From positions 1-32,674 of the forward strand of contig JAFZPS010000011.1 in NCBI GenBank assembly GCA_017550205.1: a DNA stretch of 32,674 nucleotides, in the 5' to 3' direction. The position numbers and the translations under genes were made by a program. Every line of letters begins with the position of its first letter. Position 1 is the first letter of the stretch. This document shows positions 1-17,139 of the stretch, piece after piece. The DNA comes from Bacilli bacterium. GTDB taxonomy: Bacteria; Bacillota_I; Bacilli_A; RF39; UBA660. The notes under the pieces were generated by a model. That model was not told the DNA's origin. It ran no database searches and saw nothing but the letters and a program-made list of their open reading frames with translations.

Positions 1-615
1 ATAATGGATGCTATTAATGATGGTATTGAAAGAGGATATAAGTTATTTGGTTTAAACTCAGATGATGCTTCAGCTTATGGTACTGATATTAATTCTTCAT
101 TAGAAGAGTTATTAGAAAATGTAGTTAAAATAGATAAAGATATATCTTTCTCAATACCTGAGTTTAATCCTAATGGAATAAGTAATAAAGTAATAGAATG
201 TTTAAAAGATAAGAAATTTATTTATATCACAGTACCTATACAAAGTGGATCTCAAGATATATTAAATGTAATGAAAAGACCTTATAAAATAGATGATGTA
301 ATTGAAAAGATAAAGATAATTAAAAAGAATAATAAGGGATTAAAAATAAATACACATGTAATAGTAGGATTTCCAGGTGAAACAGAAGAAGATTTTAATA
401 AGACTCTAAATCTTATTAAAACAGGATTATTTGATAGAGTTAAAGTATTTATGTATAATGATAGACCTAATACTTTATCCTCTACTATGACTAATAAGAT
501 TTCTAATGAAGATAAATTAAGAAGAAAGAATATACTACTAAAAGAAATGAAAAAACAAAATATAAAGCATTTTTCAATTACTAATTTAATTCTAAATAAG
601 GAGCAAATTGTATGA
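1..615 (+). CDS. Radical SAM protein, MiaB-like methylthiotransferase family (5' end outside window)
   Basis: The reading frame is open to the window edge, so the N-terminal half, where the CxxxCxxC iron-sulfur motif should be, is missing. What remains matches the second half of MiaB/MtaB-type methylthiotransferase radical SAM barrels: a PIQSGSQDILNVMKR segment (family form PVQSGSdrvLkaMnR), a VIVGFPGETEEDF segment, and FMYNDRPNT in place of the usual YSPRPGT. Known family members add a methylthio group to tRNA or protein S12. Unlike MiaB and RimO, the protein stops about 40 residues after the barrel and has no C-terminal TRAM domain for RNA binding. Its TGA stop overlaps the ATG of the next gene (ATGA), so the two are translationally coupled. 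The family is clear; the substrate is unknown and need not be tRNA. Confidence 0.75.
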   Translation: MMDAINDGIERGYKLFGLNSDDASAYGTDINSSLEELLENVVKIDKDISFSIPEFNPNGISNKVIECLKDKKFIYITVPIQSGSQDILNVMKRPYKIDDVIEKIKIIKKNNKGLKINTHVIVGFPGETEEDFNKTLNLIKTGLFDRVKVFMYNDRPNTLSSTMTNKISNEDKLRRKNILLKEMKKQNIKHFSITNLILNKEQIV

Positions 616-1442
616 TTGAGTTTTTAGATTATGTTTTAGATTTAGATGATAATTTCTGGATAGTTAATAATGTTACTGAAGATGGTATATATGGATATAT
701 GATATATAAGAAAGATATTAATGGAGATAGATACAATAATTTTACTAAGTTAAATTACACTAAACAGTATGATAATTATCTTATTAGGATACCTAAATAT
801 AAAGAAATATATAAACCTAGAGATTGTTTTAAAAATCATCTTAATGAAATACCTGTAATATGGAGAAAATATGTAGATGTATTAGAAAATATAGGTATTA
901 ATGATATAGGAATTTTTGGATCTTTTTTAATAGGATTTGATCCTATAAAAGATATAGATTTTGTAATATATGGGTTAGATAATTTTAAAAAATATTATGA
1001 TAATATAGAATATATTAGAAATTATATAGGAGCTACTAGTATTACAGAAGGTCATATAAATAAGCAATATAATAAACATAAAAATAATTATTCTAGTAAA
1101 TGTGATTTATTAAAAATAATATCTCGTAATTGGAGTGGTGTTGAATTAGATAATGGTGTATTATCTACTCCAAGATTTGTAATAGATGGATATATTTCTC
1201 CTACTAAAAAAGGAATAGATGAAACTCATGTAGTTGAAATAATAGATGGTACTTTATCTGACTTTGTACCTAGAAGAGCTAAAGCTTTATTAGATGGAGA
1301 AGTATTTGAGATTGTTACTCCTATATGGAAATTTCAAAGTTTTGCTAGAGACAATGATAAAATAGAAATATATGGAAACTATGATTTTAATAATCATGTT
1401 ATAATATTAGATGAAAGAAGTCATTACATTAAATACTTATAG
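612..1442 (+). CDS. Predicted nucleotidyltransferase of archaeal COG1665-like architecture
   Basis: 276 aa. Residues 102-120 hold a pol-beta-type nucleotidyltransferase core: G103-S104, then D114-I-D116 followed by a hydrophobic strand (the GS...DxD motif). A third acidic residue could be D192. An all-beta-looking N-terminal region (1-60) and a C-terminal segment (about 205-276) that reads like an OB-fold strand set flank the core. From memory this three-part layout resembles the archaeal predicted nucleotidyltransferases of COG1665 rather than the short bacterial MNT antitoxins; no search was done. It overlaps the radical SAM gene by 4 nt and is followed 8 nt later by the XRE-CYTH gene, so it is the middle gene of one operon. 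Transfer of a nucleotide to RNA, protein or a small molecule is an inference. No HEPN partner is present, which argues against an MNT-HEPN toxin-antitoxin pair. Confidence 0.6.
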   Translation: MIEFLDYVLDLDDNFWIVNNVTEDGIYGYMIYKKDINGDRYNNFTKLNYTKQYDNYLIRIPKYKEIYKPRDCFKNHLNEIPVIWRKYVDVLENIGINDIGIFGSFLIGFDPIKDIDFVIYGLDNFKKYYDNIEYIRNYIGATSITEGHINKQYNKHKNNYSSKCDLLKIISRNWSGVELDNGVLSTPRFVIDGYISPTKKGIDETHVVEIIDGTLSDFVPRRAKALLDGEVFEIVTPIWKFQSFARDNDKIEIYGNYDFNNHVIILDERSHYIKYL

Positions 1443-1450
1443 GAGGTTTT

Positions 1451-2176
1451 ATGGATACATTAGGAAGTAGAATATCAAAATATAGAATTAAAAATAATTT
1501 AAGTCAAAGTCAATTAGGAGACTTATTATTTGTTTCAGATAAAACTGTATCTAGTTGGGAAAAAGATAGAACTACCCCTACTCTAGATATTATATTTAAA
1601 ATGGCTAATATATTTAAAACTAGTTTCTATCAATTATCAATGAATGAATATTCTAATTTAGATAATTTAGAATTGGAAGTAAAATTAAAATTAGATGAGT
1701 ATGAATCAAAAAGAATATTAAAATTAATAGAAAAAGATTCTTTATACTTAGGAGATGAAGATCATAATGCAGTATACTATGAATCTACTCTAAGAAATTT
1801 TAAAGATGAGTATTTAAGAATTAGAAAAGAAAATAATATATACGTATTAAATTATAAAAAAAATAAAGGTAAAAGTCTTTGTGAGGAATATGAAACTATT
1901 ATAGATAACGCTGATAATATGAAACTTATATTAAAACATTTAGATTTTAAAGAGAAAGCTATAATTAATAAGTATAGAAAGAAATATCTATATAAGAATA
2001 AATATGAATTTTCTTTTGATAAAGTTGAAAATATAGGTAACTTTGTAGAGATAGAAGTAAAGAATCTTACTTCTTATGAAGAAGAATATAATAACTTATT
2101 CAAATTGTTAGATGAATTTAATATAGATATAAATAAAATAGATAATAAGAGATATTTAGATTATTTAGAAGAATAA
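1451..2176 (+). CDS. XRE-family HTH fused to a CYTH (CyaB-type adenylate cyclase / triphosphate tunnel) domain
   Basis: 241 aa. Residues 4-62 form an XRE/Cro DNA-binding domain (LSQSQLGDLL...VSSWEKDRTTP). Residues 73 to about 235 form a complete CYTH domain: the defining ExExK at E74-E76-K78, VYYES at 108-112, LRIR at 122-125, K136, EEYET at 145-149, KYRKKY at 174-179, and D190 with GNFVEIEV at 196-203, close to CyaB-type class IV adenylate cyclases. CYTH enzymes bind triphosphates in a beta tunnel through these acidic and basic residues, and all seem to be kept. The ribosome-binding site AGGAGG lies just upstream. The gene closes the three-gene operon and ends in a terminator. A regulator that senses or hydrolyses a triphosphate, or makes cAMP, is the natural inference. 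I do not recall a characterised protein with this fusion. Confidence 0.82.
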   Translation: MDTLGSRISKYRIKNNLSQSQLGDLLFVSDKTVSSWEKDRTTPTLDIIFKMANIFKTSFYQLSMNEYSNLDNLELEVKLKLDEYESKRILKLIEKDSLYLGDEDHNAVYYESTLRNFKDEYLRIRKENNIYVLNYKKNKGKSLCEEYETIIDNADNMKLILKHLDFKEKAIINKYRKKYLYKNKYEFSFDKVENIGNFVEIEVKNLTSYEEEYNNLFKLLDEFNIDINKIDNKRYLDYLEE

Positions 2177-2205
2177 AAAGCTAATTTTAGTAGCTTTTTT
2201 ATTTT
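2175..2205 (+). terminator. Rho-independent terminator after the radical SAM/NTase/XRE-CYTH operon
   Basis: Stem AAAAAGCTA (2175-2183) pairs with TAGCTTTTT (2191-2199) around a 7-nt loop, followed by a T-rich run. The stem begins inside the TAA stop of the XRE-CYTH gene. Confidence 0.85.
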
Positions 2206-2209
2206 TATG

Positions 2210-2241: not shown

Positions 2242-2895
2242 ATGAAATATATTTATAAAGATGATAAAGTTGAAAGAGTGTTTGATGTTTCTTATGACGA
2301 AGAAGAATTAAAAACATTATTAGATAATATTGTTAAAAAACTAAGTTATAGAGAAGATGGAGGATTTGTTATAGAACCTGGTCCAAAGTTTGATAATAAT
2401 GGATTTTCTAATGGACCTGTTTTACCAAATGGTGATCAAGAGTATGAAAATGTAACAGGATTAATGCAATGGATGCATGAAGGAGGTCTAGGTTATCCTG
2501 GGGATTCTATTAAAATTAAAGGTACAAGGGTAGTTCCACCAAGACTAGCAAGTATTATTGGTAAAATTTTAAATGATGATCCAAAAGGTATAAATGATTT
2601 AATGGAATATCCAAAACGTAGTGAATGTATTCCTATTGATGAAAGAATTGAAACAACTAATAAAGAAATAGATAAAATTAGTAATTTTGATACTGATAAT
2701 AAGATTGGTGCATTAGAAAGATTAAAACAACTTTGTGATGATAAAAAAAATGGAAGATACTTTGATACTAAATTATTAAAAAGTTTTTATTTAGAAACAC
2801 TTTCTATAATTAATCTACGTTTAGATACAGAAACAATTATTAATAAGAATGATAATAAAATATTATTAAAAGATTATATAAATAATAAGAACTAG
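2242..2895 (+). CDS. Hypothetical protein, no family recognised
   Basis: 217 aa, soluble, with no signal peptide or membrane segment. It has its own extended -10 promoter and a GAGGAGA ribosome-binding site. The middle (about residues 43-110) is rich in Gly, Pro and aromatic residues (VIEPGPKFDNNG, GLMQWMHEGGLGYPGD, KGTRVVPPRLASII) and looks like a conserved globular core. The C-terminal third (about 130-217) is predicted to be mostly helical and charged. No catalytic motif stands out. It is a single-gene unit, convergent with the HD-hydrolase gene and sharing one terminator hairpin with it. The function is unknown. Confidence 0.75.
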   Translation: MKYIYKDDKVERVFDVSYDEEELKTLLDNIVKKLSYREDGGFVIEPGPKFDNNGFSNGPVLPNGDQEYENVTGLMQWMHEGGLGYPGDSIKIKGTRVVPPRLASIIGKILNDDPKGINDLMEYPKRSECIPIDERIETTNKEIDKISNFDTDNKIGALERLKQLCDDKKNGRYFDTKLLKSFYLETLSIINLRLDTETIINKNDNKILLKDYINNKN

Positions 2896-2920
2896 TCATT
2901 GGACTAGTTCTTTTTATTTT
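2887..2920. terminator. Bidirectional terminator shared by convergent genes 2242 and 2904
   Basis: The perfect inverted repeat AAGAACTAGTC (2887-2897) / GACTAGTTCTT (2902-2912) has a 4-nt loop and is followed on the + strand by a T tract. The TAG stop of the + gene (2893-2895) and the TAG stop of the - gene (2904-2906) lie in opposite arms of the stem. Confidence 0.85.
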
Positions 2921-3941
2921 TTTGTTTAACTTTATTTTTTTCTTCACTATTATTAGCTATTTTTGCTAATTCTGAAAGTGTTTCATCAACACTATTTTTA
3001 TTTTCTTTTAATTTATAGTACATATCAAGAACTTCAGATATTCTTGATATTTTATTAACATCATTTTTACCTAATAGAATTAGTGTATATAATATTCTTT
3101 CTATAATATTCATGTGTGTTTTTGATAATTTAGCATTCTTTAGAAGATAATTCATAATCTCAATTGTTTCATTTACATATTTATCTACAAATTTTTCATC
3201 TTTTAATTCTATTAAGTCACTTACATTATCTAATCTATCACATAGTTTAATTACTAATGCCCAACTACTCATATTTTTCATTTTAATTGAAAGATATCTT
3301 TCTTTACCTAATGCTTTCTTCATATCTTCATCAGTAGTTACTTCTAAAACTAAACTAGCTACTTGTGGTCCAAATTTATCTACTATTTCAGGGTAAGTAG
3401 CTTTTGTATCTTCTATTACATCATGTAGACAAGCACTTATTAGTAATGTTTCAAGGTTCTTTGATTTTTTATATTTTAAGATGTTTTTTAATACTCGTAA
3501 AGGGTGATATATATATGGATCACCATTTTGTCTTTTTTGACCTTCATGCATCTTTACAGCGTATTTAATTGCCTCTTCTAAATTTTTACTTATATTATTT
3601 TCTTGTAGGATTTTTTCTACTTCATCTTCTTCTTTAGTTTCTGTTTTGCTTGATGGTTTTTTTGTTTCTTTTACTTCTTTTTTTATTTCACATATAGGTT
3701 CTATGTGCCAAGCTTTTGATTCATTTAATTGTTTATTTATATCAAGACTATAGTTATATATTTCCATAATTCTACGCATTTGCATAAAATCATTATAATA
3801 TTGGACCTTACTATGGATATCTTCTCCTTTCTTTACATATACTACATAGTCATCATAATCAAATGTATCACAGACTATTATTGCATGTGAGTATTCACCT
3901 GTATTTCCTCCTAATACAGCTTTGCGAACATCTAGTGGCAT
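2904..3941 (-). CDS. HD-domain (p)ppGpp hydrolase-like protein (SpoT/MESH1-type) with an extra N-terminal region
   Basis: 345 aa. Residues about 118-260 match the hydrolase domain of RelA/SpoT proteins and MESH1: HEGQKRQNGDPYIYHP (H132, H146), LHDVIEDT with H173-D174 and E177-D178, and KLCDRLDNV with D225, which are the metal and catalytic positions of the HD fold. No synthetase or TGS domain follows, so it should only hydrolyse. Known relatives remove pyrophosphate from (p)ppGpp or, as in MESH1, dephosphorylate NADPH. The first 85 residues form a separate unrecognised domain joined by a charged Lys/Glu linker. I chose the ATG at 3941 because GAGGTGATAAT precedes it; an upstream ATG at 3998 lacks a ribosome-binding site. 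It is divergent from the LysR gene. Confidence 0.8.
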   Translation of the reverse strand: MPLDVRKAVLGGNTGEYSHAIIVCDTFDYDDYVVYVKKGEDIHSKVQYYNDFMQMRRIMEIYNYSLDINKQLNESKAWHIEPICEIKKEVKETKKPSSKTETKEEDEVEKILQENNISKNLEEAIKYAVKMHEGQKRQNGDPYIYHPLRVLKNILKYKKSKNLETLLISACLHDVIEDTKATYPEIVDKFGPQVASLVLEVTTDEDMKKALGKERYLSIKMKNMSSWALVIKLCDRLDNVSDLIELKDEKFVDKYVNETIEIMNYLLKNAKLSKTHMNIIERILYTLILLGKNDVNKISRISEVLDMYYKLKENKNSVDETLSELAKIANNSEEKNKVKQKNKKN

Positions 3942-3959
3942 ATTATCACCTCTTTCTAA

Positions 3960-3988
3960 TTGAATTGTATATCTTTTTTTGTTATAAT
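3960..3988 (+). promoter_or_regulatory. Promoter of the LysR gene
   Basis: The -35 is TTGAAT (3960-3965), followed by a 17-nt spacer and the -10 TATAAT (3983-3988), which carries an upstream TG (extended -10). The site lies in the divergent gap, where the LysR protein could also control the HD-hydrolase gene. Confidence 0.75.
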
Positions 3989-4030
3989 TAAAATACAAAT
4001 ATTTTATCTAGACGATAACTGGAGGTTATG

Positions 4031-7914: not shown

Positions 7915-8545
7915 TATCATTGTCTCCTTTCATACCAAAGGCAATTTTAATGATTGCTTGTACTGCAGCAAATACTAACCATATTATCCATGTAATATGC
8001 CAAGCTCCTGTTGCAAAGCTTACTAATAAGTAGATTATAGTAAATATAATAGAAACTAATTCTATAATACCATCCATCTTCTTCTCATCATTTGTCTTTT
8101 CTTTTTTCTTTTTAGTTATTGTAGTACTTAATACAATACCTTGGTAGATTAACATACATGTAGCTATACCACATAGTAAGAAGAATCCTCCTACCATAAA
8201 TCCTTCATTTAAATTGAATGACACTTCAGATACAATGATCCAAATGATTGATAAGAAATATAAGAATATTGCTGAAGTAATAAAAAGTGCTCTTTTCTTT
8301 TTATTATCCTTATTAATAAATTCTACTTCTTTCTCTTCTTTTTCTTCTTGTGTTCCATTAAGCAATTCATTAGTTGATATTTCATATAGTTCACATATAG
8401 GAACTATTTTATCAAAATCAGGTTTAGATTCATCTGTTTCCCATTTTGATACTGATTGTCTAGTAACATTTAATCTTTCTGCTACTTCTTCTTGAGATAA
8501 TCCTTTCTTTTTTCTCAATTCGTATAGTCTTTCTCCTAAAGACAT
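7907..8545 (-). CDS. XRE-family regulator with C-terminal membrane domain
   Basis: 212 aa. Residues 4-62 are a classical XRE HTH (LGERLYELRKKKGLSQEEVAERL, then TRQSVSKWETDESKP). A charged linker leads to about four hydrophobic segments (roughly 84-104, 113-135, 158-178, 180-203), so the DNA-binding domain would be tethered to the inside of the membrane. GGAGGTGATAGT before the ATG is a strong ribosome-binding site. It is first in an operon with the DUF4097 gene, which it overlaps. An envelope-state sensor controlling its own operon is inferred; the palindrome in its promoter fits that. Confidence 0.88.
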   Translation of the reverse strand: MSLGERLYELRKKKGLSQEEVAERLNVTRQSVSKWETDESKPDFDKIVPICELYEISTNELLNGTQEEKEEKEVEFINKDNKKKRALFITSAIFLYFLSIIWIIVSEVSFNLNEGFMVGGFFLLCGIATCMLIYQGIVLSTTITKKKKEKTNDEKKMDGIIELVSIIFTIIYLLVSFATGAWHITWIIWLVFAAVQAIIKIAFGMKGDNDNE

Positions 8546-8589
8546 ACTATCACCTCCATGACAAAAATATTACACCATTTAGCGGTTGC

Positions 8590-8620
8590 ACTCTACCAAC
8601 AGTTCTTGGAAATTTGTCAA
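8590..8620 (-). promoter_or_regulatory. Promoter and possible operator of the XRE/DUF4097 operon
   Basis: On the - strand, a perfect -35 TTGACA (8620-8615) is followed by a weak -10 (GGTAGA at 17 nt or TAGAGT at 19 nt). Between them lies CCAAGAACTGTTGG (8609-8596), whose CCAA/TTGG arms form a small dyad, placed where a bound repressor would block RNA polymerase. Confidence 0.5.
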
Positions 8621-8647
8621 CTTTTATTAACATTTAAATTATAACAT

Positions 8648-8676
8648 AAAAAAAGCAACTATTAATTGCTTTTTTA
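8648..8676 (-). terminator. Terminator of the HtrA gene
   Basis: The stem AAAAAAGCAA (8649-8658) / TTGCTTTTTT (8666-8675) has a 7-nt loop. On the - strand it begins within the TAA stop of htrA and ends in a T run. Confidence 0.85.
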
Positions 8677-9864
8677 TGATAAAGTTACTTCTACATCTTT
8701 TTCTTTATATTGTCTTCCTGAAATATACTTAATTTTTAGTGTTACTTTATCCCCTTTTTTCTTTTCATATAAGTAATCTGTGATTACTGAGAATTTTGTA
8801 ACTTCTTGATTATCTATTTTAACTATTATATTACCTATTTCTAATCCTGCTTTATCTGCTCCACTACCTGCTGATATTTTAGATATATATACTCCTAATG
8901 GCATATTGTATGTTGAAGCTTGTGCTTCAGTTAACATATATCCTTCTATTCCTATTTTACCACCTGTTTTATCTTCTTCACCATTCATTAATGCAGTTAC
9001 TAATTCTTTTACATCTGTGATTGGAATAGCAAATCCCATACCTTCTATTGAAGTACTATTTGAACTACTTGCAGAATATTTAGCAGAGTTAATCCCTACT
9101 ACTTCACCTTTATTATTTAATAATGCCCCACCTGAGTTTCCTCCATTTATGGCTGCATCTATTTGAATCATTCTATTGGTTACATCATCTATTTTTACTT
9201 CTCTATTTAATGCACTTACTACACCAGTAGTTACTGATTGTCCATAACCTAAGGCATTACCTATGGCTATTATTCCATTACCTACTTTTAATTCATTACT
9301 ATCTCCTAATGTAGCTATTTTTATAGCATTAATAGTATCATTGTCTAAGTCTTTCATTTTTACAGCTATTACTGCTACATCACGATTTTCTGATGCACCT
9401 TTTACTGTAGCATCTACACTCTTTTCATTTATGAATTGTACTGATAATTCAGTCGCATCTTCTATAACATGATTATTTGTTAATATTAATAATTCTGTAT
9501 CTGTTTTACTAATTATAATTCCAGATCCTGCACCTGTTGTATATGTATTACTGCTACTACCAAAGTTATAGAATGGACCATAGTATCCTGACTTTACTAA
9601 TGTCTTACTAGTGATTGCTACTATAGATGGCATTACTTCTTCTACTATTTCAGATACATCAGTAATGTAAATACCTTCTTTTATTTTAGTATTTGTTTCA
9701 GTATATGTTAATTCGGCTTTTTGTGTTGTACCTAAATTCTTTAATACATCTATTTTTAATAGTCCTACATTATTTAGAGCTATTATAAATGATATAAGTA
9801 TTAAGCATACAAATGAAATAACTACTATAATTACTATCTTTGAACTTTTATTCTTTTCTTTCAT
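8674..9864 (-). CDS. HtrA/DegP-like membrane-anchored serine protease with PDZ domain
   Basis: 396 aa. One membrane anchor at about residues 9-30. The trypsin-like (S1C) domain spans about 68-285 with the full catalytic triad: H132 in TNNHVIEDA, D162 in NRDVAV, and S244 in NGGNSGGAL. One PDZ domain follows (about 300-390; GVYISKISAGSGADKAGLEIGN). Length and layout match Bacillota HtrA proteins, which degrade misfolded proteins on the outer face of the membrane. GAGGGATAAT precedes the ATG. It appears to be its own unit, with a terminator behind it and an A/T-rich gap ahead. Which paralogue (HtrA, HtrB or YycK-like) cannot be settled. Confidence 0.95.
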   Translation of the reverse strand: MKEKNKSSKIVIIVVISFVCLILISFIIALNNVGLLKIDVLKNLGTTQKAELTYTETNTKIKEGIYITDVSEIVEEVMPSIVAITSKTLVKSGYYGPFYNFGSSSNTYTTGAGSGIIISKTDTELLILTNNHVIEDATELSVQFINEKSVDATVKGASENRDVAVIAVKMKDLDNDTINAIKIATLGDSNELKVGNGIIAIGNALGYGQSVTTGVVSALNREVKIDDVTNRMIQIDAAINGGNSGGALLNNKGEVVGINSAKYSASSSNSTSIEGMGFAIPITDVKELVTALMNGEEDKTGGKIGIEGYMLTEAQASTYNMPLGVYISKISAGSGADKAGLEIGNIIVKIDNQEVTKFSVITDYLYEKKKGDKVTLKIKYISGRQYKEKDVEVTLS

Positions 9865-15671: not shown

Positions 15672-15711
15672 AAAAAAAATGATAGTTGTCATTTATTTAC
15701 AACTATCATTT
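15672..15711 (-). terminator. Terminator of the mnmA/fic/xre operon
   Basis: The 13-bp perfect stem AAATGATAGTTGT / ACAACTATCATTT (15677-15689 with 15699-15711) is followed on the - strand by eight T. The stop codon of the XRE gene (15693-15695) lies in the loop. Confidence 0.9.
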
Positions 15712-16376
15712 AATTTAATTGGTATTGTGTAAGTAATGGTTTTATTATTATCATCTTTAGCTTCTATTTCTAGTGTTAAACTACTCTTACTTAAGTTCTT
15801 ACATGTTTTAGAAGAATGATTTGTATTTACTTGAAGTTCTTTTAAGAAATCTTCTAGATTAGTATTCTTCTTTTTATCACATGTACTTATTTTAGTTTTA
15901 GTATCATTATATGTTTCATATAAAGTACAAGTAATACTTTTATATTTAGCAGTATCTTCTTTTCCACAGAATTCTACATTAGATATGTATATAGTAGCTT
16001 TATCACTATTATATGCAGCACTACCACTTATTTTAAAATCACTACATGTAGTAGTTATTGTTTTAAATTCATAATCAGAACTTTTTCCATATAATATATA
16101 ACCTACTATTAATAAAACAATTAATAAAACTACTAATAATAATGGATAAAGATTTTTCTTTTTATCTTTCTTTTCTCCATCTAATATTTCATCTATATCT
16201 ATATTAAACATTTTACTCATTTCTTTTATTATAGATATATCAGGAACATTCTTACCATTTTCCCATTTAGATACTGCTTGATAAGTAACTCCTAATTTAT
16301 CGGCTAATTCTTTTTGAGTTAGTTTATTTTCTTCACGTATCTTTTTTATGAATTGTCCTATTTTTTCTTGATTCAT
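15693..16376 (-). CDS. XRE-family regulator with one membrane helix and an outer domain
   Basis: 227 aa. Residues 5-62 are an XRE HTH (IGQFIKKIREENKLTQKELADKL, then TYQAVSKWENGKNVP). A Lys-rich linker leads to one transmembrane helix (about 75-92) and an extracytoplasmic domain of about 130 residues with five or more Cys (CSDF, EFCGKED, TCTLYE, STCDKKK, TCKNLS, and a final DSCK), which may form disulfides. This single-pass shape suggests a transmembrane signal receptor. It lies 13 nt after fic and ends the mnmA operon. The CPWC lipoprotein nearby could service its cysteines, but that is inference. Confidence 0.85.
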   Translation of the reverse strand: MNQEKIGQFIKKIREENKLTQKELADKLGVTYQAVSKWENGKNVPDISIIKEMSKMFNIDIDEILDGEKKDKKKNLYPLLLVVLLIVLLIVGYILYGKSSDYEFKTITTTCSDFKISGSAAYNSDKATIYISNVEFCGKEDTAKYKSITCTLYETYNDTKTKISTCDKKKNTNLEDFLKELQVNTNHSSKTCKNLSKSSLTLEIEAKDDNNKTITYTIPIKLNDSCK

Positions 16377-16389
16377 AATATTACTCCTA

Positions 16390-17139
16390 TTATTTTTGGA
16401 TTGGTCCTTTTCTATCTTTATCTATTTTTTCTTCTAATTCACTTTTTAATGTTTTTAATGTAAATTCTATGAATGGAGTTATATCTCCTTTATTACATTT
16501 AATTATTGCTTTTTTATATTCAGTTCTATTCTTATACATTCCTTTATTGAACATAATAAGTGGATCTTCTTTTTGTTTTATTAGATACCACATAGATAGT
16601 GTTCTTGCAGTTCTACCATTAATATCAAAGTATGGATGTACTTTACCAATATAATAATGAATTATTTGAGATTTAATATATATATCTACTATATTACTTT
16701 CATTATCTGTATTTATGTATTCAAATAAATCATCCATTTTATTACTTACTAGAGATGGGTCTATTCCTTTATCATAACCTCCTAAAAGATTATGTGATCC
16801 ATCTAATATATATACGTCTTTTTGTCTATAGTATTCTCCCATATTTTCTATGGAATAATCATCTAATAAACCATTACTTAAAATATCATATAGTTCTTTT
16901 ACTGTATCTTTATTAATTGTTTTTGTTTCTAATATATAATTATATCCTTTAGCTAAATTTCTTTGGTCTTGACCTAATTCATATTCTAAAGATGAAACTA
17001 ATTCATCATAAGCATCAAAACCTCTTAGACACTTAATAAGATCTTCTATATCTTTTTTTAATCCTATTATCGGAATTTTATTATAGAAGATATTTTTATC
17101 AGCTTCTATTTTTAATTTTAATACTTTAAATCCTAACAT
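16390..17139 (-). CDS. Fic/DOC-family protein with a divergent catalytic motif
   Basis: 249 aa. The Fic active-site loop is at residues 168-179: HPYFDINGRTAR, where the usual form is HPFxDGNGRxxR. The catalytic H168 and the phosphate-binding N174, G175, R176 and R179 remain, but the Gly after the acidic residue is Ile173. An N-terminal helix carries S50-L-E-Y-E54, which fits the class II inhibitory motif (S/T)xxxE(G/N) except for Leu at the last position. Fic enzymes usually transfer AMP from ATP to a Ser/Thr/Tyr of a target protein. It lies between mnmA (12 nt away) and an XRE membrane regulator, after an AGAGGTG ribosome-binding site. Target unknown. Confidence 0.85.
   Translation of the reverse strand: MLGFKVLKLKIEADKNIFYNKIPIIGLKKDIEDLIKCLRGFDAYDELVSSLEYELGQDQRNLAKGYNYILETKTINKDTVKELYDILSNGLLDDYSIENMGEYYRQKDVYILDGSHNLLGGYDKGIDPSLVSNKMDDLFEYINTDNESNIVDIYIKSQIIHYYIGKVHPYFDINGRTARTLSMWYLIKQKEDPLIMFNKGMYKNRTEYKKAIIKCNKGDITPFIEFTLKTLKSELEEKIDKDRKGPIQK

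Follow-up and report, generated by a model that had tools for sequence, protein, structure and literature searches.

An XRE-CYTH gene appears to be a local addition to an operon of kinase, radical SAM and nucleotidyltransferase genes with a possible role in small-molecule metabolism

Gene layout at the locus

A stretch of 32,674 nucleotides (positions 1 to 32,674) of contig JAFZPS010000011.1 of a Bacilli bacterium (assembly GCA_017550205.1), called the window here over its whole length, opens inside an operon in which the 3' part of a gene for a radical SAM protein of the methylthiotransferase (MTTase) type is followed by genes for a pol-beta-type nucleotidyltransferase (NTase) and for a fusion of an XRE-type helix-turn-helix (HTH) with a CYTH domain (XRE-CYTH; Table 1). 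A first-pass annotation had described three coupled genes that end in one terminator and had proposed that together they possibly form an undescribed nucleotide-linked system. The coupling is borne out by an ATGA overlap between the radical SAM and NTase genes and a gap of 8 nt between the NTase and XRE-CYTH genes. The family assignments also hold in domain-model searches: the radical SAM fragment matches Radical_SAM (2.9e-15) and TIGR00089 (1e-43), the NTase reaches Pfam NTP_transf_2 below threshold (15 bits vs a cut-off of 21), and XRE-CYTH matches HTH_3 (1e-11) and CYTH (3.1e-17). The terminator stands in part: a hairpin with an 8-bp stem, a 7-nt loop and a T run is present, but its stem has just two G-C pairs, and it is unlisted in a consensus terminator scan, which requires three.

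Table 1. Operon genes, domains and motifs in the window
Feature	Position	Strand	Details	Source
Radical SAM gene, methylthiotransferase type, 3' part (last 204 codons)	1..615	+	5' end and cysteine motifs outside window	
Pol-beta-type nucleotidyltransferase (NTase), 276 aa	612..1442	+	N-terminal small beta-barrel, NTase core, C-terminal OB fold	
NTase active-site motif G103-S104-x9-D114-x-D116	918..959	+		Alignment
NTase C-terminal OB-fold domain, residues 197-276	1200..1439	+		
XRE-CYTH fusion, 241 aa	1451..2176	+	HTH_3 residues 8-59, CYTH from residue 73	Pfam
CYTH hallmark ExExK, residues 74-78	1670..1684	+		Alignment
YxRxR, residues 121-125	1811..1825	+	YLRIR in the window	Alignment
Terminator-like hairpin and T run 3' of XRE-CYTH	2176..2206	+		Read by eye in sequence

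A kinase precedes the radical SAM-NTase pair

When genomes were scanned with 30 aligned NTase sequences, seven loci were found (L001-L007), five of which are bacterial (L001-L004 and L006, from metagenome-assembled genomes labelled Clostridia or Bacilli). In all five bacterial loci the genes for a kinase, a radical SAM protein without a TRAM domain and the NTase overlap in that order, the first two by about 20-50 nt according to the start codon taken and the last two by 1-4 nt. A Gfo/Idh/MocA dehydrogenase gene lies directly before the kinase gene in four of the five (domain match 1e-14 in L004, aligned relatives in 4/5). Archaeal locus L007 carries, with gaps of −17 to +1 nt, genes for an AAA_28 protein, a 61-aa open reading frame (ORF), a CYTH protein, the kinase, the radical SAM protein and the NTase, and it is the only one of four archaeal loci with a strong NTase match to keep the kinase-radical SAM-NTase order; L005 (Woesearchaeota) has the kinase and NTase genes followed by a methyltransferase gene, without a radical SAM gene. 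The kinase gene is directly 5' of the NTase or radical SAM gene in 9/9 loci with a strong NTase match, and it is present in every locus that carries the radical SAM clade of the window (6/6).

The window starts too late to include the kinase/dehydrogenase region, which is expected upstream of its left edge. The first-pass annotation had suggested looking there for a fourth gene, and in the six homologous loci this position is held by the kinase gene. Thus the three-gene unit of the first-pass annotation survives in its radical SAM-NTase pair, but the constant partners of that pair are the kinase and, in four of the five bacterial loci, the Gfo/Idh/MocA dehydrogenase, not XRE-CYTH.

The models nearest to the kinase are 2-phosphoglycerate kinase (2PGK) and mevalonate-3-phosphate 5-kinase, i.e. 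enzymes of small phosphorylated acids. It resembles 2PGK as a P-loop kinase (2PGK match of 5.4e-16 for L004 and 6.5e-36 for archaeal L007) and differs from it in scoring 58.8 and 124.3 bits, respectively, against the NCBIfam PRK04220 cut-off of 343.

The linkage of NTase and radical SAM genes was also followed by proxy, counting homologues whose longest contigs have equal size in bases (all 116 NTase, 120 listed of 227 radical SAM and all 83 XRE-CYTH homologues), with sizes shifted by 1-10 bases as control; the proxy is indirect and undercounts, because only the longest contig per protein cluster is compared. By this measure 36 of the 116 NTase homologues have a counterpart of equal size (35 distinct sizes) among the 120 listed homologues of the radical SAM protein, vs a control mean of 0.8 (maximum 3), and the radical SAM-NTase link is therefore above chance.

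The radical SAM protein is a separate MTTase-type enzyme

Full-length homologues of the window's radical SAM protein are about 391 aa long and consist of UPF0004 and Radical_SAM domains, after which they end; the tail of the near relative P0254 (391 aa) is the same as the window fragment at 195/204 positions. The fragment is 65-73% identical to five bacterial clade members and 51% identical to the archaeal member, and the UPF0004 domain is present in 6/6 homologous loci. We aligned the six unit radical SAM proteins, i.e. those encoded beside the NTase, with 14 full MTTase paralogues (alignment A8). Cysteines C13/C49/C81 of UPF0004 and the CxxxCxxC cysteines C166/C170/C173 of the radical SAM domain are invariant in all 20 rows; for the window's own gene both regions fall outside the window. 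The unit proteins thus share with MiaB, MtaB, e-MtaB and RimO the two domains and the three plus three cluster cysteines.

They differ from these enzymes in four respects: a missing TRAM domain, a separate long-stem clade, scores below cut-off and an operon shared with kinase and NTase genes. TRAM was found in 0/6 unit proteins in a search up to E 1, and in none of the precomputed Pfam assignments of the 120 listed among 227 radical SAM homologues. In a tree of 21 rows, from which the partial paralogue L100 was left out, the unit proteins and the window fragment form one clade (100/100) whose stem is 1.4 changes per column long. The unit scores lie under all equivalog cut-offs (window fragment, L004 and L007 tested). 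Each of the six unit-bearing genomes has one to three further MTTases, which together with those of G005 make up the 14 full paralogues; in A8, TRAM is matched by nine members and TRAM_2 by five, in sets that possibly overlap, and the six paralogues tested all scored above an equivalog cut-off (e-MtaB-type, 2; RimO, 1; MtaB, 1; MiaB, 2). Because the unit proteins form a clade of their own, have no TRAM domain and occur in genomes that also hold TRAM-bearing paralogues, the unit enzyme is a separate MTTase-type enzyme and not MtaB; a full MtaB orthologue with housekeeping function, named in the first-pass annotation as what would overturn the system idea, is rejected for this gene on the same three grounds. 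Methylthio transfer by the unit protein is inferred from its family.

The NTase family and its other settings

In pol-beta NTases the active-site motif takes the form hG[GS]...Dx[DE], and a third catalytic carboxylate is found. The active-site G, S, D and D are invariant in all 78 sequences of alignment A6 (72 of 116 NTase homologues, the window protein and those of five loci); there is no obvious third carboxylate, and an invariant R188 lies near the expected strand, both as judged from the alignment. The NTase core can be aligned with Pol beta, PolX and TUTases, and its VIA neighbours include TUTases and CutA; the OB fold is like SSB/RPA and the N-terminal domain like the Ski2 insertion domain. 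A resemblance to archaeal COG1665 nucleotidyltransferases is also possible, and no paper on COG1665 was found in the open-access literature. Foldseek searches with the whole model and with residues 1-196 returned nothing at E ≤ 1e-3, and families outside the resulting lists are possible; by sequence there is no solved relative, the single match (E 0.004) being chance-like. Compared with the pol-beta superfamily (TUTases, Pol beta/PolX, CutA, ANT(2'')), the window NTase thus differs by its flanking small barrel and OB fold, its score under the Pfam cut-off and its lack of a Foldseek match at that threshold.

NTase relatives also occur in other settings. Locus L003 has a tandem duplication of the NTase gene (8001-9747). 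Two archaeal operon-like strings (L064:4134-9312 (−) and L065:4529-9175 (−)) encode a transaldolase, a 2PGK-like kinase, the NTase, a polyprenyl synthase and an aldo/keto reductase, with a B12-type radical SAM gene also in L064 (neighbours Pfam-tested in L064, named by eye in L065); they show the kinase-NTase pair in a further, unexplained setting. In L075:6896-8329 and L076:3991-5415 an NTase of the window family carries a nucleoside diphosphate kinase (NDK) domain fused to its N terminus (Pfam-tested for L075); both fusions adjoin a gene for a DegT-type aminotransferase and lie near a NUDIX gene, and L075 has a phosphodiesterase gene as well. Archaeal genomes hold two adjacent NTase-relative genes of about 350-420 aa (L066:4079-9019), or NTase relatives of which one is long and one is split into two frames (L067:4239-8259), in each case beside a phosphodiesterase/nucleotide pyrophosphatase gene and HIT-like and PHP-like genes (the latter two named by eye). 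No 2PGK-like kinase adjoins the distant NTase relatives of L066, L067, L075 and L076 within the stretches read, and the distant matches L053-L063, L078 and L079 were read only via L066 and L067.

XRE-CYTH is widespread outside the unit

XRE-CYTH proteins form their own family, with 83 homologues. Among 385 genomes from the order to which G004 belongs, at least 37 contain the fusion (E ≤ 1e-25; at most seven candidates scored per genome). In an equal draw the NTase is found in 2/385 genomes (G004 and G006); neither holds XRE-CYTH, and no genome is in both lists. Thirty XRE-CYTH loci (2.3-3.8 kb each, from 30 of the 37 genomes) contain no relative of the NTase, the radical SAM protein or the kinase by phmmer, and their neighbours vary, with no constant partner by eye. 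Conversely, the fusion is found in 0/7 NTase-bearing genomes, where the matches span the HTH part of the query; in G001 the match of greatest length (query 4-141) runs through a frame with five stops. XRE-CYTH as a part of the core is therefore rejected, being widespread without the unit and absent from the seven NTase genomes.

Splitting the homologues by identity to the window protein separates 28 that are at least 68% identical (the window clade) from 55 others. By the contig-size proxy, 7/28 window-clade proteins match the radical SAM/NTase unit (control 0.15, maximum 1), whereas 1/55 of the others do so (control 1.3, maximum 3). XRE-CYTH thus appears to be a local addition at the 3' end of the operon in the window's lineage. 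The conserved adjacency of the three genes, which the first-pass annotation had proposed to test, is limited: XRE-CYTH adjoins the unit only in the window's clade, and the 30 other loci have no unit genes.

We aligned 37 of the 83 XRE-CYTH homologues with the window protein (alignment A7). The CYTH hallmark ExExK is kept in 37/38, window included; the opposing R/K/ExE residues are also kept; W/YxRxR is found in 35/38, and the cyclase-specific HF in 0/38. According to PMC8233210, HF before ExExK is required for class IV adenylate cyclases, and W/YxRxR is the aromatic-stacking motif of thiamine triphosphatases. XRE-CYTH thus shares with CYTH proteins, or triphosphate tunnel metalloenzymes, the ExExK and opposing R/K/ExE residues, and with the thiamine triphosphatases among them W/YxRxR; it differs by its N-terminal XRE HTH, and passages of PMC8233210 list other fusions, the term 'HTH' being missing from its main text. 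No paper on an XRE/HTH-CYTH combination was found in the open-access literature. Because the triphosphate-tunnel residues and the aromatic-stacking motif are kept, an organic triphosphate is probably the ligand or the hydrolysed substrate of the CYTH domain, by which transcription would be set. In L038:396-2226 (−) an XRE-CYTH gene overlaps a gene for an AAA_28-CYTH fusion, which places two CYTH proteins in one operon.

Other lineages carry a different regulator

In two Clostridia loci (L001 and L002), a gene for a protein with NUDIX and NrtR_WHD (winged HTH) domains lies upstream of the unit, instead of XRE-CYTH. Its NUDIX box is impaired (REMLEK), a trait described for the NrtR/AraR sensor family in PMC4666351. 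The regulator, whose gene is outside the window, shares with NrtR/AraR proteins the two domains and the impaired box, but its score of 145 bits is far below the 400 required by the NtrR equivalog model. It is found at E ≤ 1e-30 in only one of 57 genomes of its order, the unit-bearing one, and so appears to travel with the unit. The regulators therefore change between lineages, XRE-CYTH in the window's and NUDIX-NrtR in the two Clostridia loci. Since two unrelated HTH proteins, each fused to a domain of a family that binds phosphate compounds, adjoin the same enzymes, there is a hint that the operon product or its precursor is a nucleotide-type compound.

Distribution of the unit

The NTase is found in 2/385 and 1/193 genomes of the Bacilli order (overlapping draws, centres counted), in 3/191 genomes of the Clostridia order, of which two are distant (full-length match in 1/191, centre counted), and in 13/327 and 10/194 genomes of archaeal phylum draws, mostly as distant matches. 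The identity matrices of kinase, radical SAM protein and NTase correlate over six loci (r 0.93-0.97), a correlation driven by few contrasts. This patchy spread and the correlated identities fit an accessory unit that may have moved as a block. The operon is rare, occurs both in gut bacteria and in some tiny-genome (DPANN) archaea, and has most likely spread horizontally. Phage or plasmid cargo is rejected, as the NTase has no match in phages, plasmids or viral contigs and the unit kinase none in phages.

Discussion

Our analysis tentatively favours, in a judgement that stops somewhat short of probable, a core operon of kinase, MTTase-type enzyme and NTase that builds a sulfur-bearing nucleotidylated small molecule, with XRE-CYTH added in the window's lineage. 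The substrate, inferred like the order of steps throughout, would be a small metabolite that resembles a sugar or polyol: the Gfo/Idh/MocA dehydrogenase would set its oxidation state; the P-loop kinase would phosphorylate it; the radical SAM enzyme would add a methylthio group (or sulfur) to an unreactive carbon; and the NTase would transfer a nucleoside monophosphate from a nucleoside triphosphate onto it. In the window's lineage, XRE-CYTH would gauge an organic triphosphate and control transcription. The likeness of the kinase to kinases of small phosphorylated acids may be counted in favour of such a pathway, as may the small-molecule partners of NTase relatives (transaldolase, polyprenyl synthase, aldo/keto reductase, DegT). 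A nucleotide-containing product, proposed in the first-pass annotation, remains our best guess, but it would be made by the kinase-radical SAM-NTase core and not by the three genes named there.

It is possible, though rather doubtful, that the radical SAM-NTase unit is real and XRE-CYTH is an unrelated passenger downstream of it in the window's lineage, read through from the operon. The many genomes with XRE-CYTH and without the unit, none of them in the NTase list, the 30 loci with differing neighbours and no unit relatives, and the chance-level size matches outside the window clade all fit a passenger. However, within the window clade the adjacency is stable (7/28 vs control 0.15) and the gap is 8 nt; the archaeal operon L007 holds another CYTH gene; and the Clostridia versions carry a different HTH fused to a NUDIX domain. 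Sensing of the product by XRE-CYTH, as proposed in the first-pass annotation, would thus at most be a feature of the window's lineage.

The main rival to a small-molecule pathway, which we consider unlikely, is an operon that modifies RNA or tRNA: the TRAM-less MTTase would methylthiolate an RNA base, the NTase and kinase would build or repair the same RNA, and CYTH would in some versions be an RNA 5'-triphosphatase. Several observations weigh on this side and against our proposal. The MTTases known so far modify tRNA A37 or ribosomal protein S12, the two kinds of proven substrate named in passages of PMC10702137; the NTase has an OB fold and an N-terminal domain that resemble parts of SSB/RPA and Ski2, and TUTases and CutA stand among the VIA neighbours of its core; CYTH enzymes include RNA triphosphatases (PMC8233210). 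The hint of a nucleotide-type product or precursor that the regulators give is in turn made weaker by the fact that BtAraR responds to plain arabinose (PMC4666351).

An anti-phage defence operon is very unlikely. Patchy spread and an attached HTH gene would suit it, and there are weak PADLOC matches of mad8 to the kinase P-loop (3.6e-5), of RmrA/HTH_VI to the HTH and of PDC-S07 to the NUDIX-NrtR regulator of L001 (1.1e-9); against it, PADLOC gave no match for the L004 radical SAM protein, NTase or dehydrogenase or for the L007 CYTH and AAA_28 proteins, the NTase has no phage or plasmid match, and the enzymes look biosynthetic.

Hardly any weight can be given to XRE-CYTH as a class IV adenylate cyclase that would place the operon in cyclic AMP signalling. 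The window protein does score 70.9 bits on TIGR00318 (cut-off 57.95), and the source names of two homologues point the same way (P0133, 'class IV adenylate cyclase'; P0129, 'predicted adenylyl cyclase CyaB'); however, because HF is found in none of the aligned proteins and the thiamine triphosphatase-type W/YxRxR in nearly all, the label is probably wrong, and we reject this identity on motifs (no HFxxxxExExK). XRE-CYTH genes so annotated are probably triphosphate-binding regulators. Least credible is an ordinary MtaB/MiaB gene with chance neighbours, which the match of the window's first gene to MiaB/MtaB family models would allow and which is already refuted for the sampled loci by scores below the equivalog cut-offs, the separate clade, TRAM-bearing paralogues and constant neighbours.

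No paper describing the gene set was found among the top-ranked search results in the open-access literature, where most subscription journals are missing. PMC10702137 also mentions coenzyme F430 from ANME-1 archaea, a small molecule that is methylthiolated, and the study sought to exclude its MTTase for that step. In the most far-reaching form of our proposal, which is speculative and possible rather than probable, the unit would hold the first MTTase whose substrate is a small molecule, free or linked to a nucleotide, and not tRNA or ribosomal protein S12, as a fifth, TRAM-less clade; its kinase-NTase activation pathway would have moved between DPANN archaea and Bacilli/Clostridia of the gut, and exchangeable one-component regulators (XRE-CYTH, NUDIX-NrtR) that sense nucleotide- or triphosphate-type ligands would read its output. 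If so, MTTases would gain a new substrate class through this TRAM-less clade with its linked kinase and NTase, a large orphan NTase family would gain a function, and an undescribed sulfur-containing metabolite would be indicated in animal-gut bacteria and DPANN archaea. The idea of an undescribed system gains support, with a changed membership in which kinase and dehydrogenase are included and XRE-CYTH is a local attachment.

Other genes in the window

A 217-aa ORF beside the operon end (2242-2895 (+)) has no match in Pfam or NCBIfam. About 0.7 kb downstream of XRE-CYTH, at 2907-3998 (−), lies a gene for an HD_4 protein that resembles the hydrolase half only of RelA/SpoT. Farther along the window, a gene for a Fic-domain protein (16393-17139 (−)) adjoins an XRE-type gene (15693-16376).

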